Below, piece after piece: positions 1-6,688 of a DNA stretch of 32,937 nucleotides (the first letter of the stretch is position 1; each line of letters begins with the position of its first letter). Below the pieces are notes generated by a model. That model saw only the letters and a program-made list of their open reading frames with translations, ran no database searches and was not told the origin of the DNA. The stretch is from an uncultured beta proteobacterium (GTDB lineage Bacteria; Pseudomonadota; Gammaproteobacteria; Burkholderiales; Burkholderiaceae_C): positions 1-32,937 of the forward strand of contig CAISJH010000016.1 of NCBI GenBank assembly GCA_903885585.1, read 5' to 3'. The translations under genes and the position numbers were made by a program.

Positions 1-1332
1 GGCGTCCCAACTCTCTATCCCTAGGCTGGCCAAGAACTTGTCCTGTGCCTGACTTCTTTGCGGCGCGGTGATAGCCCAAGTGGGCTGGTCGCCCCGGCCC
101 GTAACGAACGCCAAGTCTTCGTCGGAAAGCAGCGCCTTGAGTGTTGCTCGCGCTTGGCATAAGCGAGATGCTGGTGCGTAGCCTCCTGCGAAGGTCGGCA
201 CCAACGCCTGTGACTTCATCTCCTCGACGATAGTCGTACGGATGACCCTGTATCGCTCAGGAAGGGGATCGTCGTTGTTTGGAAGGACAGCCAAAAAGTC
301 TCCACTCAACAGGCCAAGGTCCTTGACCGAATGGAGCGCTCTTGCGCTGAGTCGTGCCAGTTGTTCAAACAGTGGCGTGTTCTCTGGAGTGTTCTTGATG
401 CTCGCGCGGCTGAGCTCGGGAACGAAGGGGGCGTGCAGGTGATAGCGAAGTCCCGATACCTCCTTGTCTGCCGGAAAGAACACGGAGACCATTCCTCGTT
501 CCGACGGGATGATGCGTAGCTGGCCGGCGATTGGCTTCTTGGGGTCGAAGGACTTCTGTTCGCCACGGAAGGCAAGCTCGAAGGCGATGGCAACGGCTTG
601 CTTCTCAATGCCAGCTATCGGCGCCGAGAACTGATGGACATCAGAAACGGCGGCCGCGAACCGCAGCCAATGGGAACTTTGCACATCCCTGCCCTCGACC
701 TGCTTGAGCACCTCGATATGTGATGGTGAGTGCTCGTGGCGAAGCACAGCGCCTTCAACACCCGCTACGCGCCACCGGATGTACTGCAGGCTGCGAAGGA
801 ACAGCAGCGTGGTCTCGGAGAGCTGTTGCAGCCCCGCCTTAACCTCGGCGTAGGCGGTCTCCTTGTTCTTCTTTGGATTGTTGAAGGGGAACTCAAAACG
901 CGTTCGACTTCCAAGTCCTTCCCGACCCGGTACCGGAATGGGTAGAAAGCGCCGATCAATCTGGAAGCTGTACTCCGACGAGTAGACGGTTGGGTTACTC
1001 GTGTACGTATAGACGGACTTGAATCCGACGCCGAACTTGCCAATGCGGTCGGGGTCGTCCTTCTTTGTGCTGTTGTTGATTCCGGTTATCGCGTCAATGT
1101 CGTCCAGGTTGAACTGCCGTTCTCCGTTGTGCTCGAAGACGCACTTCGATTCAGAGAGCTCGAACATCACCTCCGAAGCACCTGTGTCCTCGGCGTTCTG
1201 GAGCAGCTCGTAGATGAAGTGCGCCTCGTCCGGATAGAAGTCGTCGAAGATGTCAAGGTTGATGCCTTTGTTCTTGGCGAGCGCGGCCAAGAACTCCCGC
1301 CGCTGGGCAGCAAGTTCCTCCAGAGTGTTCAT
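1..1332 (-). CDS. Sacsin/HSP90-like GHKL ATPase-domain protein, C-terminus beyond window
   Basis: The frame is open for 444 codons from an ATG at 1332 to the left edge, so the gene is partial. The N-terminus carries a GHKL (HSP90/MutL/histidine-kinase type) ATP-binding fold: the N-box is LLQNAED around N46 and the glycine lid motif GKFGVGFKS lies at residues 98-106. The spacing is that of sacsin-like ATPases, which are found in many large bacterial defence-associated proteins. ATP binding is well supported; the substrate is unknown because the effector or C-terminal part is missing. The start overlaps the stop of the upstream helicase by one base (TAATG), implying translational coupling and a joint function. 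A MutL or histidine kinase is unlikely because neither the following transducer nor a kinase region is seen in the first 440 residues. Confidence 0.85.
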   Translation of the reverse strand, partial: MNTLEELAAQRREFLAALAKNKGINLDIFDDFYPDEAHFIYELLQNAEDTGASEVMFELSESKCVFEHNGERQFNLDDIDAITGINNSTKKDDPDRIGKFGVGFKSVYTYTSNPTVYSSEYSFQIDRRFLPIPVPGREGLGSRTRFEFPFNNPKKNKETAYAEVKAGLQQLSETTLLFLRSLQYIRWRVAGVEGAVLRHEHSPSHIEVLKQVEGRDVQSSHWLRFAAAVSDVHQFSAPIAGIEKQAVAIAFELAFRGEQKSFDPKKPIAGQLRIIPSERGMVSVFFPADKEVSGLRYHLHAPFVPELSRASIKNTPENTPLFEQLARLSARALHSVKDLGLLSGDFLAVLPNNDDPLPERYRVIRTTIVEEMKSQALVPTFAGGYAPASRLCQARATLKALLSDEDLAFVTGRGDQPTWAITAPQRSQAQDKFLASLGIESWDA

Positions 1333-4300
1333 TACCGCCTCCGCACTTCAATCACGCCAAACACCGCGGGCGTTGCCTTGATGTCTCCGCTCTCGGCAGC
1401 CTTTCTGAGCGCAGCCACCCGGACGTCGAAGTCAACCTGAGCTCGCTCCAATTCCGCCTGCTTCATCACGCGAATCTTGTCGTTCGTGGCCCGCCCGATT
1501 TGCTCTTCCAAGAGGGCTCGCCGCGCTGTGAAGCTCGCATTCAGGCTTTGTATTCGAACCCCAACAAGCTGGCGGTTGTCTTCTGCGTGCTGCGTGGACT
1601 GCCGCAGCCACAACTGGTGGTGCACCTTGTCCAAGTCATCCCAAACTTGTTGCCCAGGAAGCTCCAGCCCGGACGCGTCAACGGCAGATGGGAGCACCTC
1701 CAGCAGAGCGTCCGCAACCGCTGGACTCTCGGTCACCGGTATCAAGTCTTCTTCGCGCTTAGCCCCTTGTCTCAACCAGCGATAAAGAGCGAATGGGTGG
1801 AGGCCTTCCGGCAGCACCTCGTTGATGACGGCCAGTCGCACCGCAACGGCGTCAGTTTCTTGCAGGAACGCCGCGGCCTGCCGAAGCAGCGGATGACCCA
1901 GAGAAAGTAGTGCTGCGCTCGCGTTCTCGACCGCCGCCTCTTGCTCGAAGGTGACCGAGAGGGTCGGAGAAGTTCCCTTTAGCCATCTCTCCCACGCCCG
2001 GTGCATGGGGTCGGTTGAGCGAGGGAGTCTGCGGAAGTCGTCCAACAGTGCGGCGCGCGCCTCCTGACTCAGCCGCAAAGTCTTGAGCGCCTTCTCTCCA
2101 AGAAGATAGTCCTGCTCCTTCCCGAGCCGACGAGCTAGGTACGAACCGACGGCCAAGATGAGGGCCTGGGGTTCAAGCCAATGGCTACGAGACTTCGCCA
2201 GCCGCTGCTCCCAGGAGGCAGCAGCAAGGTTGAGTCCGAAGAGTTCACCCTGACGCTCCTCCAGTCTCTGCTCCTCTTCGAGCTGCCGAATCTTGTTGTC
2301 GGACAGTTGGAGAAGGCGCCGCTTCCTTTCCTCTTCACTCAGAGCGAACGACTCGGCGATGTTGTGCAACTCCTTGGTGATTTCACCGAGGATTTCCTCG
2401 TTGCCGCCGATGGCGTGCTGGAAGACCCCAATCCGACTGAGGCAGCGGTCAAAAATTTCTGCGTCTATCGTGCCTTGGGTGATGAAGTTGAAGATGCCCA
2501 CCGCCTCGCTGGTTTGCCCATAGCGGTCGATCCGGCCGATGCGCTGTTCGACACGCATAGGGTTCCACGGAAGGTCAAAATTGATAAGGCAATCGCAGAA
2601 CTGGAAGTCGAGGCCTTCGCATCCGACTTCGGACGAGAGCAAGACGTCGATGGTCTCTTCGTTTTCCTTGGGCAACGAAAAGCGTCTGCGCAGTGCTGAC
2701 CGCTCCTCGTCGGGTACACCGCCATGGACGAGTCCGAACCGAACACCGGCTGCGGTCAACTTCCCCACGAGATAGCGGAGGGTGTGGCGGAAGGTGCTGA
2801 AAACCAGCACCTTGTTGCGGGGCATGGCGAGCTTGTCAGTCACCACCTGCATGAACGCCGCGGCCTTCGGATCGTTCGGGTCCAGGTTGCTCGCTCGCTG
2901 AAGCAGCGACGCGATGTCTCCGCGTACTTGCTCGACGAAATCGAACTCCCGCTCGACTCCGTCATCGGGGTCATCGGCCTCCTCAAGGCTGGCAAGCTTG
3001 CCTTGTAGGACGTCTCGCAGCGCCGGCGCCAGCCCATATAGGCTGCTCGCGGCCTGCCGGCTCACCGTAGACATCATGAACTTCACGTTCTGGTCCCCAT
3101 GGAGCTTGGCGAGGATGCGGGCGATGACACTCAACAGGTCATCGTGCAGTTCCTTCTGGCTCGGAGTGAATTCAGTGCTGACCGTCTCTGCCTTCCGAGT
3201 CGTGAACTCGCCGATGTCTCGACGCCTTGTACGGTTGATGAGCGAGCTGAAAGTGAAAAGCTCTTCTAAAGAGTGGATGGTCTTGATGCGTGACTCACCG
3301 TCCTTTCCTCCCTCGGTAAGGCCGTCGTAGATGTGCTGGAAGCCCGGGTTGGTGGCCAATACCTGGCGCCCCCACATGGTCGTAGCCACCGCTCGCAGTT
3401 CTTTTCTGACTTGTTCGGACCATCCAGCTTCACCGCGTCGACATGCCTGAATCGCTGCGTTGATGAACTGGTTGGGCTCTGCCATCTGCTCGAAGCTGGC
3501 TGGATCGATGATCACGTCAGGTCGCAGAACATTGAGCAGCGTGTAAAGGTCATTTCGGCCGAGCTGAACCGGTGTGGCCGAAAGGAAAACGACGGCTTCT
3601 GCGTTGTCGGCGAAGTATCGAACCGCCTGATGCAGAAACGTCTCGCTGTTTCGGATGTGGTGAGCCTCGTCGACTATGACGAGGTCGAACTTCGGCGGAG
3701 GGTCGAGTTCAAGAAGACCGGGATCCCGCGCCTTGCCTCGGCCAAATCTGCCGAACAGGAGGTCGTTGTCGAACAATGAGGTCGGCAATATCGCTCTTTC
3801 GTACTGCGTAGGCCACTCGCCACCGAGATGTGTCTCCTTGATGCAGTGTCTGAGCAGTGAACCATCGAGATGTACAAAGTGCTCATCGAAGCGCTTCATC
3901 TCCAGTTCCCACTTCCGCTCCGTGACTAGCGATTTGGGGCAGATGATGAGCACCGACTTGATGTCGCTCCGCGCCTGTAGCTCCTTGAGGATTAGGCCAG
4001 CTTCGATAGTCTTGCCAACACCAACCTCATCCGCGACCAACAGCCGGGGCCGGTCGGCTCGTATGAGCTTGAACACCGGCCGGTACTGATACGGCACGAA
4101 GCGAACTCGACCAGAGTTCAAGGAGTAGAGCGCCGACGCGGACGGCGAAGACAGTTGGATGGCACTGAGTAGGGAAGACAAGCCAACTGCCGTAAGCGTC
4201 GTGCGGACTGTTTCAGGCTCTTCTAGGGCCCGGAGTTGACTCTCGTAGTACACCTGTCGCGCGCCGTTCTCGAAGACGCGGTACCGAGTCTCCGCAGCCT

Positions 4301-4910
4301 CACCTGCCAGGATGTCTAGTACGGGTAACACTGTTGCGGGGTTCGACCGAAGACAGAGCAATTGGCCGACCATAAACTTGCTCGCGGGAGTTAGTGCCGA
4401 TGCGTGGGCAGTCGCTCCGCCTGTAGCCACGGTTGCGTTTATTGCTTGGGTGGCCGCCACGTAACGCTCGGGCATTGGAGCGAGCCCCCGCAAGGTCTCT
4501 TCTTTGAACGCCGATATCCGCCCTGTCAGGTCCGAGTTGGCACCCACGACGGCTAGCAGACGGTCCAAGGTGTCTGCGTCACGGAAGGTGTCTGTCGGAT
4601 TCACACCACCAACTGGCGCGTGTGCCCAGCGATTCCGAGCGCTTTGCAGTTCCTTCACCCAGTTACGGCCTTCTCTTGGAAGCGGATTAATGGCGGCCAG
4701 GTCATTCCAGTTCTGGTCGAGGACACGCAGTACTGCGGCTAGGTCCAGACCGCTCAGGCTCCGAATGCGCCTCTCCTCGGTGAGGCGCTGCTGCTGGAAC
4801 GTCAATCGGTTGACGACGTGATCAAGCCACCAGTTCTCGCCGAAGCTCGAAAGCCTTTCCTCAAGCCATTTCGCAATGACGCCCGCAGACGCCTGAAGTA
4901 GTTCGTTCAT
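1332..4910 (-). CDS. SNF2-type DEAH helicase with N-terminal Swt1-like HEPN domain
   Basis: This 1192-residue superfamily 2 helicase has Walker A EVGVGKT with GKT at 299-301, the DEAH box at 414-417 (VIVDEAHHIRNS), a SATP motif III region, and motif VI QRIGRIDRYGQ starting at about Q789, so both RecA lobes look intact. The first ~110 residues resemble a Swt1-type HEPN domain and contain the RNRWAH motif at 92-97, which fits the R-X4-H signature of HEPN RNases. The C-terminal ~350 residues are charged, partly coiled-coil, and not assigned. The start ATG is preceded by GGGGAG at good spacing. It is co-transcribed with the GHKL ATPase downstream (1-nt overlap). Helicase identity is certain; the HEPN call rests on motif and position; a role in phage or plasmid defence is inferred from architecture. 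Confidence 0.93.
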   Translation of the reverse strand: MNELLQASAGVIAKWLEERLSSFGENWWLDHVVNRLTFQQQRLTEERRIRSLSGLDLAAVLRVLDQNWNDLAAINPLPREGRNWVKELQSARNRWAHAPVGGVNPTDTFRDADTLDRLLAVVGANSDLTGRISAFKEETLRGLAPMPERYVAATQAINATVATGGATAHASALTPASKFMVGQLLCLRSNPATVLPVLDILAGEAAETRYRVFENGARQVYYESQLRALEEPETVRTTLTAVGLSSLLSAIQLSSPSASALYSLNSGRVRFVPYQYRPVFKLIRADRPRLLVADEVGVGKTIEAGLILKELQARSDIKSVLIICPKSLVTERKWELEMKRFDEHFVHLDGSLLRHCIKETHLGGEWPTQYERAILPTSLFDNDLLFGRFGRGKARDPGLLELDPPPKFDLVIVDEAHHIRNSETFLHQAVRYFADNAEAVVFLSATPVQLGRNDLYTLLNVLRPDVIIDPASFEQMAEPNQFINAAIQACRRGEAGWSEQVRKELRAVATTMWGRQVLATNPGFQHIYDGLTEGGKDGESRIKTIHSLEELFTFSSLINRTRRRDIGEFTTRKAETVSTEFTPSQKELHDDLLSVIARILAKLHGDQNVKFMMSTVSRQAASSLYGLAPALRDVLQGKLASLEEADDPDDGVEREFDFVEQVRGDIASLLQRASNLDPNDPKAAAFMQVVTDKLAMPRNKVLVFSTFRHTLRYLVGKLTAAGVRFGLVHGGVPDEERSALRRRFSLPKENEETIDVLLSSEVGCEGLDFQFCDCLINFDLPWNPMRVEQRIGRIDRYGQTSEAVGIFNFITQGTIDAEIFDRCLSRIGVFQHAIGGNEEILGEITKELHNIAESFALSEEERKRRLLQLSDNKIRQLEEEQRLEERQGELFGLNLAAASWEQRLAKSRSHWLEPQALILAVGSYLARRLGKEQDYLLGEKALKTLRLSQEARAALLDDFRRLPRSTDPMHRAWERWLKGTSPTLSVTFEQEAAVENASAALLSLGHPLLRQAAAFLQETDAVAVRLAVINEVLPEGLHPFALYRWLRQGAKREEDLIPVTESPAVADALLEVLPSAVDASGLELPGQQVWDDLDKVHHQLWLRQSTQHAEDNRQLVGVRIQSLNASFTARRALLEEQIGRATNDKIRVMKQAELERAQVDFDVRVAALRKAAESGDIKATPAVFGVIEVRRR

Positions 4911-6205: not shown

Positions 6206-6298
6206 TGCCGACGCTGTTTGTTCAAGGGCAGATGAGAACCCGCATTGCGAGAATCTCTGTCCGACAATCCCGCCCGCCCGGATGTCCGGGCAGCAACG

Positions 6299-6688
6299 AT
6301 GAAGAACATGAACAAGGCAGAACTGATCGAGCACATCGCTGGCGCGCACTCCCTGACCAAGGCTGAAGCCGGTCGCATCGTCGAGACCTTCACGAGCGCG
6401 ATCGTGAACACCGTCAAGAAGGGTGGCGCGGTCGTGATCCCCGGCTTTGGATCATTCAAGCAAGTGGCTCGTGCGGCCCGCACTGGGGTGAACCCGTCCA
6501 CGGGTGCCAAGCTCAAGATCGCCGCCACCAAGGCGCCCAAGTTCACGCCGGGCTCTGCGTTCAAGGCTGCGGTGGACCCGAAGGCAGCGCGCCGCAAGGC
6601 TGAGAAGGCCGCTGCGGGCAAGGCTGCAGCGCCTGCAAAGAAGCCGGTCGCCAAGAAGGCCGTTGCCAAGAAGGCCGGCAAGGCCTGA
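6299..6688 (+). CDS. HU-family DNA-binding protein with Lys/Ala-rich C-terminal tail
   Basis: The start is placed at the ATG at 6299 (an ATG at 6308 giving MNKAELIEHIA, the classic HU beginning, is equally possible), producing about 129 residues. Residues ~4-95 form a complete HU/IHF fold: helical dimerisation part, then VIPGFGSFKQVARAARTGVNPSTG, which includes the RxGxNPxTG DNA-binding beta-arm motif. The last ~40 residues are repeated Lys/Ala/Pro (KKPVAKKAVAKK-type), as in eukaryotic H1-like tails of betaproteobacterial and other HU variants. Its role is nucleoid compaction, with the tail expected to raise non-specific DNA affinity. The longer reading from 6245 adds residues not seen in HU proteins. 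Confidence 0.95.
   Translation: MKNMNKAELIEHIAGAHSLTKAEAGRIVETFTSAIVNTVKKGGAVVIPGFGSFKQVARAARTGVNPSTGAKLKIAATKAPKFTPGSAFKAAVDPKAARRKAEKAAAGKAAAPAKKPVAKKAVAKKAGKA

Follow-up and report, generated by a model that had tools for sequence, protein, structure and literature searches.

A HEPN-SNF2 helicase paired with a sacsin-like GHKL ATPase: a probable two-gene antiviral module in bacteria

A stretch of 32,937 nucleotides from an uncultured beta proteobacterium (GenBank assembly GCA_903885585.1, contig CAISJH010000016.1), hereafter the window, is one entire contig of a 5.5-Mb, 862-contig assembly and carries two adjoining genes, for a HEPN-SNF2 helicase and a sacsin-like GHKL ATPase. Many bacteria have the same pair, frequently close to phage-defence genes, and for that reason it is probably a little-noticed two-gene immune system; it is regarded here as a real and probably antiviral module of the helicase-plus-ATPase defence kind. 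The fuller proposal, which is given an even chance on the sequence features, is that the two genes form a horizontally moving antiphage module whose motor-ATPase core would license RNA cleavage by the HEPN domain.

The helicase gene (positions 1332 to 4910, minus strand, as are all features of the pair below) encodes 1192 amino acids (aa) and was identified as an open reading frame (ORF) with Pfam matches to HEPN_Swt1, SNF2-rel_dom and Helicase_C. Its stop codon and the start of the partner share a TAATG junction (1332 to 1334), read directly from the sequence; a preliminary description of the window had reported a DEAH helicase of this length overlapping a GHKL ATPase gene by 1 nt, and the ORFs and the junction confirm it. 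The N-terminal HEPN domain with the sequence RNRWAH announced in the same description was found at residues 13-123 (4542 to 4874) as a Swt1-type domain (PF18731, 57.3 bits against a curated cut-off of 27.5, E value 2.4e-15), so that the profile comparison with Swt1 and HEPN families proposed there returned a match. The motif itself, R92-N-R-W-A-H97 (4620 to 4637), was placed by alignment of relatives, and with R92 and H97 forming an intact R-x4-6-H RNase motif (here R-x4-H) the window copy is a predicted RNase. In the HEPN-bearing rows the motif reads R-N-x-W-[AS]-H, with the Arg in 28 of 29 (His in locus L022) and the final His in 29/29; an expression requiring the N, the W and the final H was matched by 38 of the 39 HEPN-bearing loci, 37 of them with the Arg, the miss being locus L080, where the HEPN is cut.

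The HEPN domain is followed by a fast-evolving linker (residues 124-178, 4377 to 4541), a conserved stretch (residues 179-230, 4221 to 4376; conserved columns G182, E207, Y210, V212, F213, Y222, S224 and Q225), a first SNF2 motor domain (residues 282-496, 3423 to 4067; ResIII at 282-448 and SNF2-rel_dom at 409-496, the latter with E 1.2e-18) and a second motor domain, Helicase_C (residues 694-798, 2517 to 2831; PF00271, E 5.8e-20). The Walker A sequence GVGKT (G297-T301, including K300; 4008 to 4022) and the DEAH box D414-E415-A416-H417 did not vary among the 31 sequences of alignment A2. Among solved structures, profile search placed RapA nearest (8so8, E 3.2e-45), the NCBIfam RapA profile spans residues 258-1058, and the best PADLOC model was DrmD (388 bits); judged by sequence, the motor is of the RapA/DrmD-like SNF2 type with its motifs intact. 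Residues 179-230 matched no family and may, by position, occupy the place of the Tudor domain in RapA/BrxHII helicases.

The partner gene (1 to 1332; ORF and Pfam) runs off the contig end after its first 444 aa. Because the window is a complete contig, the C-terminus is missing, and no other contig of the same assembly matched when a complete relative was used as query (E 1e-5). The GHKL ATP-binding region with its ELLQNAED and IGKFGVGFKS boxes lies at 970 to 1236 (SACS PF25794; sacsin 5v47); the N-terminus scored 65.1 bits against SACS PF25794 (Pfam cut-off 32.8), and the best PADLOC model was TmtA (174 bits), the Tiamat protein. Box residues E42, N46, D49, G98, F100, G101, G103 and K105 were invariant in alignment A1 (24 sequences), and the family profile (A3, 21 sequences) matched animal sacsin (PDB 5v47) at E 7.3e-17.

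Relatives have a partner of about 1040 aa, and it was from these that an HNH-type domain was read, the window copy being cut upstream of it; lying beyond the contig, the domain was invisible to the preliminary description. Profile positions 919-989 matched the HNH nuclease EcoKMcrA (6ghc, E 3.7e-5), with which the cysteines and the PF...DG and LCP motifs align. The catalytic His-His is absent, FEAVE or a similar sequence replacing the LEVHH of McrA in 24/24 sequences of A1. The fold was revealed only by profile search against solved structures; Pfam searches of the partner's C-terminal pieces gave nothing above cut-off. It may be a disarmed fold retained as a reader, both its zinc binding and its inactivity being predictions from the alignment. 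On a Proteus plasmid, an 851-aa protein (L047, 4189-6741) with restriction genes adjoining has a similar degenerate HNH-like domain in its C-terminal half, and in L023 (16422-18851) the partner is split into an N-terminal 942 aa, a 598-aa ORF and then the C-terminal domain.

Relatives of the helicase were collected by a scan of genome contigs, which gave 31 loci at 45-89% identity from (as deposited) Pseudomonadota, Verrucomicrobiota, Lentisphaerota, Planctomycetota, Actinomycetota and Margulisiibacteriota, those outside Pseudomonadota being metagenome bins. Further relatives came from plasmids (including those of rhizobia and of the archaeon Methanomethylovorans), phage-collection records, IMG/VR contigs and random genome samples. 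The 48 distinct family loci analysed, window included, were selected by the authors: the distant L041-L044 were excluded (L041 at 364 bits) and the similarly distant archaeal L046 (409 bits) was included, while plasmid matches H10-H16, the distant IMG/VR loci L082 and L083, and L045 stayed outside the analysis. A same-strand partner adjoins the helicase in 44 of the 48, in support of the pair as a conserved unit. L075-L077 came from a search that started with the partner and are uninformative on pairing; without them the count is 41/45. In the four loci where no partner was seen, the contig ends first (L016, L040, L049) or the partner is an inverted fragment downstream of the helicase (L080, 3339-5408). 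The gene order is reversed in L033. Junctions in 22 listed relatives, taken with mechanical start codons, comprise 19 overlaps of 4 nt and three gaps of 4 nt.

These counts, drawn from several phyla and an archaeon, already refute the notion that two unrelated genes stand together by chance. Nothing within the family speaks for it, the more distant helicases that have other neighbours being all that could be cited, and its probability is negligible. No conserved third gene was found, the broadest neighbour cluster (c2) occurring in 6/31 loci; its tested member is PDC-S68, and in L012 (16797-20669) the c2 gene beside the pair, one of about 1250-1300 aa, matched PDC-S68 at 1501 bits.

The distribution is patchy, the helicase being found in 0/60 other near genomes at E 1e-30. 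In random samples a close helicase was present in three of 368 other genomes of the class (a distant one in one more) and the pair in three of 397 other genomes of the phylum; three more of the phylum-sample genomes have a sacsin-like protein and no such helicase at E 1e-30, these matches stopping at model position 783-790, where the ORF of L069 is cut. In the helicase tree a Pseudomonas copy lies among beta-proteobacterial ones, in keeping with transfer. Matches occurred in 61 of 5426 E. coli genomes, in no case over 80% of the gene. Coverage is about 3% in the ten that were listed; the single region inspected holds an SNF2 gene within a locus of MADS type. Three phage-collection records carry the helicase, and the two that were examined also carry PglZ or type III restriction-modification (R-M) genes, for which reason they look bacterial. 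One of these, L048 (MT835838.1, deposited as unverified 'Bacteriophage sp.'), holds PglZ, the pair and, at its edge, an ORF that by eye resembles a methylase, and looks like a bacterial BREX locus, not a phage.

This spread bears on a reading without immunity, in which the helicase would be a transcription factor, a RapA-like motor that recycles RNA polymerase, has an RNase fused to it and works with a chaperone-like protein. The choice of RapA as nearest solved structure would suit it, as would a small ORF resembling a sigma factor by eye, with no family match, that stands upstream of the rhizobial HEPN-less helicases. Against these stand the score of 196 bits, far under the RapA cut-off of 576, the absence of the helicase from 60/60 near genomes at the threshold given and the defence genes described below, and the reading is improbable. 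The small ORFs are of 176-184 aa, precede the helicase on the plasmids at L035 11306-11836, L036 11303-11833 and L037 11286-11840, and in L035 and L037 had no Pfam or NCBIfam match.

Neighbouring genes were compared with controls at 16 of the 31 loci, those whose flanks were long and for which a control stretch could be used (L012 and L018 had been inspected previously). Up to four ORFs on each side, each of at least 120 aa, were taken as neighbours; for the controls, a 17-20-kb stretch at least 23 kb from the pair or on another contig was chosen in each genome and its eight central ORFs were used, some of these stretches lying only 23-50 kb away. The longest ORFs were left out (1/119 test, 5/128 control). 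At E 1e-40, 29 PADLOC models matched among 118 neighbours and five among 123 control ORFs. PADLOC output counts models, not proteins, and by the authors' reading these correspond to 12 defence proteins against one (Fisher p 0.0012) or, cautiously, to 10 against one (p 0.0046). The five control models are type II methyltransferases (MTases) with one member each and are probably one protein, as elsewhere a single protein matches all five; only a weak contrast would remain if each were a separate protein. Among the 25 models shown, PDC-S68 was matched by four neighbour proteins, and PglZ, BrxL, type III MTase, type III restriction endonuclease (REase), SoFic, DrmMI-like, PDC-S40 and PDC-S01 by one each. 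The check for defence-island enrichment proposed in the preliminary description thus gave a positive result (10-12/118 against 1/123), and the homologues were not found scattered without the partner and outside defence or mobile contexts.

Single loci illustrate the same setting. PglZ (785 bits) lies directly upstream of the pair in L048; L018 has a type III MTase (700 bits), and L049 has one of 516 bits with a weak type III REase match. The gene run in L017 is DruE-like, DpdE, the pair, DrmMI-like and Dsr2, and in L006 a 2142-aa ORF bearing MZB, the DUF1998 domain of DrmB, stands directly downstream.

The HEPN domain is under purifying selection. The ratio of nonsynonymous to synonymous substitution (dN/dS), computable for HEPN and linker in four of six close pairs, was 0.133 (against L004), 0.071, 0.057 and 0.094 for the HEPN and 1.0, 0.23, 1.4 and 0.45 for the linker, which has few codons (55 in the L004 comparison that gave 1.0); the motor gave 0.03-0.06 in five close pairs (0.05 against L004). 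HEPN values near those of the motor, beside high linker values, are what a functional domain held by a flexible tether would show. Presence of the HEPN was judged in 47 loci, the 48 less L025, whose sequence starts within the gene, and it was present in 39.

Several observations weigh against an antiphage module acting through its HEPN domain. Eight of the 47 helicases lack it (L029, L033, L035, L036, L037, L039, L040 and L046), with the ATPase in view beside seven of these, L040 being cut; the pair being kept without HEPN in seven loci, the domain cannot be the sole output of the pair. The tree, whose root is arbitrary and several of whose end branches are long, requires four to five gains or losses of HEPN, and L029 and L033 are nested in a well-supported group that otherwise bears it. 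In L022 the motif Arg is missing from the HEPN. At 1e-40 no defence model was matched by some 102 or more of the 118 neighbours, and the distant helicases of the broad family (L041-L044) have other neighbours and no sacsin-like partner: the next gene is an Hsp70-like protein in two, a transposase in one and, in L041, a visible 252 aa that did not match. The defence-pair interpretation in the preliminary description is partly supported, by the real HEPN, the conserved unit, the defence-rich context and the F-type conjugation cluster of the window; that helicase-sensed nucleic acid would trigger HEPN cleavage is a hypothesis.

A separate HEPN gene was sought around all eight HEPN-less loci by six-frame search with a model made from the family (E 1; positive controls L005 and L048) and none was found, the flanks of L039 and L040 being short and a divergent HEPN able to escape; the one HEPN_Swt1 in the L029 genome lies about 1.5 Mb off, within a DUF499-type protein. 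In L042 (11811-13574) and L044 (11894-13663), on Sphingobium and Aminobacter plasmids, the sacsin-like protein is replaced by an Hsp70/actin-like protein with a DFGTSS motif, judged by eye and with no NCBIfam match, and in L044 a Hachiman HamA lies near the helicase.

The HEPN-less loci speak for a possible but less favoured account, in which the helicase-GHKL core is itself the defence, recognising and blocking or remodelling foreign DNA in an R-M-like manner, and HEPN is a replaceable last-resort suicide effector. The core does persist without HEPN in L029, L033, L035-L037, L039 and the archaeal L046; sets of GHKL ATPase, superfamily 2 (SF2) helicase and HNH in R-M loci are an old theme in the part of PMC2292703 drawn on here, and HEPN is termed a backup effector of BREX-related systems in the corresponding part of PMC12839542. 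Set against this, the pair showed no recognisable intact DNase, the His-His being missing from every sequence of A1, and HEPN is under purifying selection and is retained in 39 of the 47 judged loci.

The helicase/ATPase pair sits at the edge of the contig beside an F-type type IV secretion/conjugation cluster (7757-31097) that takes up much of the remaining window, in agreement with the conjugative element reported earlier. The minus strand carries TraG_N, TraH, TraN, TraU, TraC, TrbI-type and TraK genes, the plus strand those for TraI_2 and a coupling protein; one of ten scanned proteins of this region had no family match. Between pair and cluster, an ORF at 6245-6688 resembles by eye an HU-type DNA-binding protein with a lysine/alanine-rich tail. 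This location, and the plasmids of the rhizobial relatives, one of them typed conjugative, might be taken to indicate a maintenance or toxin-antitoxin-like device in which motor and ATPase restrain a HEPN toxin in the service of a conjugative element. Such a device is improbable, since the contigs that carry several of the copies measure 0.3-5 Mb, two being titled chromosome (L023 and L029; conjugation genes were not searched for there), the ATP-driven machinery exceeds 2200 aa, unlike small toxin-antitoxin pairs, and defence genes are among the neighbours.

GHKL ATPases dimerise upon ATP binding and work as clamps, SNF2/RapA motors travel along double-stranded DNA, and HEPN domains cut RNA as dimers. 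For the antiphage module favoured here, the sequence suggests that motor and ATP-gated GHKL dimer would form one complex on DNA, where the degenerate HNH and Tudor-like parts may read DNA or its modification without cutting. Stalling or capture on foreign DNA would alter the complex and free or pair the HEPN domains, which would then cut cellular RNA (tRNA or mRNA) and halt phage production, probably through growth arrest; in lineages without HEPN the core would act alone or with another effector. An unlikely variant is a transcription-coupled RNA immune sensor, in which the RapA-like motor would engage RNA polymerase or R-loops on invading DNA and HEPN would cut, on site, the nascent transcript or nearby tRNA. 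It is equally unlikely that, as this variant has it, the sacsin-like clamp holds the assembly in chaperone style until a foreign or modified template is met, or that the whole arose from an ancestral GHKL-helicase-HNH restriction system whose DNA nuclease was disarmed and an RNase substituted.

If the favoured proposal is true, the pair would join DISARM, BREX-related and GHKL R-M systems in the helicase-ATPase family as a compact, methylase-free member. With the HNH fold disarmed in one subunit and an RNase carried by its companion, a nuclease swap is suggested. The two genes, about 6.7 kb, are easily cloned and tested. The arrangement would also tie a sacsin-like ATPase fold to a HEPN RNase in bacteria; a parallel, with a different HEPN within one animal protein, is given in the consulted part of PMC3710099.

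Part of this architecture is already known. A fusion of Swt1-like HEPN to a SWI2/SNF2 ATPase was tabulated in 2013 (WQE_15321; Table 1, Anantharaman et al., PMC3710099), its HEPN being called active; by that published description the fusion is the same, and in the sections of the paper used here no sacsin-like or GHKL partner is named for WQE_15321. The pairing with a sacsin-like ATPase is thus apparently, and tentatively, undescribed: no description of it was recognised in the open-licence literature, a weak absence, as most subscription journals lie outside it. It is proposed in the same sections that R-M systems keep their HEPN parts restrained until restriction fails, and HEPN is listed as a variable co-effector on DndF in the portion of PMC10853773 consulted.

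Candidate identities were tried and rejected. DrmD of DISARM scored 331 bits against an NCBIfam cut-off of 610, and RapA orthology failed the NCBIfam equivalog cut-off; with both scores under curated cut-offs, the helicase is neither. MZB was found 0 times in its own genome (96% complete, pair at contig edge), and 15 of 23 pair genomes have none. The pair is not a BREX core unit, as PglZ and BrxL models were each matched by 1/118 neighbours, PglZ in L048 preceding the pair, and no further PglZ or BrxL was among the 25 models shown at 1e-40. Membership of BREX-related/Hma systems was rejected: DUF499 is at 0 in the own genome and present in six of 23 pair genomes, the nearest about 11 kb from the pair (G439). 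Identity with a McrA-like HNH nuclease was rejected on the lost His-His. TmtA shares the sacsin-like GHKL N-terminal part, with 168 bits for L004 and as many as 252.7 for the archaeal relative; the better matches end at profile positions 448-840 of 1302-1655, leaving the C-terminal HNH-like domain outside. Tiamat was rejected because the partner matches this N-terminal part only and is paired with a helicase, not stand-alone.

Close likenesses also lie with two groups of systems. In the part of PMC12839542 consulted, BREX-related (BR/Hma) systems and BrxHII likewise have a RapA-like Swi2/Snf2 helicase, with a Tudor domain in the RapA/BrxHII architecture; some RapA-like defence helicases carry an N-terminal nuclease (HKD in Type-2 BR), and a HEPN effector occurs in Type-1 BR. 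Unlike these, the pair has a GHKL ATPase and no DUF499 ATPase in the unit; GHKL, sacsin and HSP90 do not occur in the text of PMC12839542. The MORC/paraMORC R-M loci (Iyer et al. 2008, PMC2292703, in which the word sacsin is absent) likewise join a GHKL ATPase to SF2 helicases, one group being SWI2/SNF2; as far as the consulted part goes, they too spread horizontally and have HNH or restriction nucleases in their vicinity. GHKL boxes and an SF2 helicase in one operon are found in the pair too, and on these features alone it resembles the paraMORC type. Unlike those loci it has no methylase, its HNH fold is degenerate, and its intact nuclease domain is an RNase by prediction.

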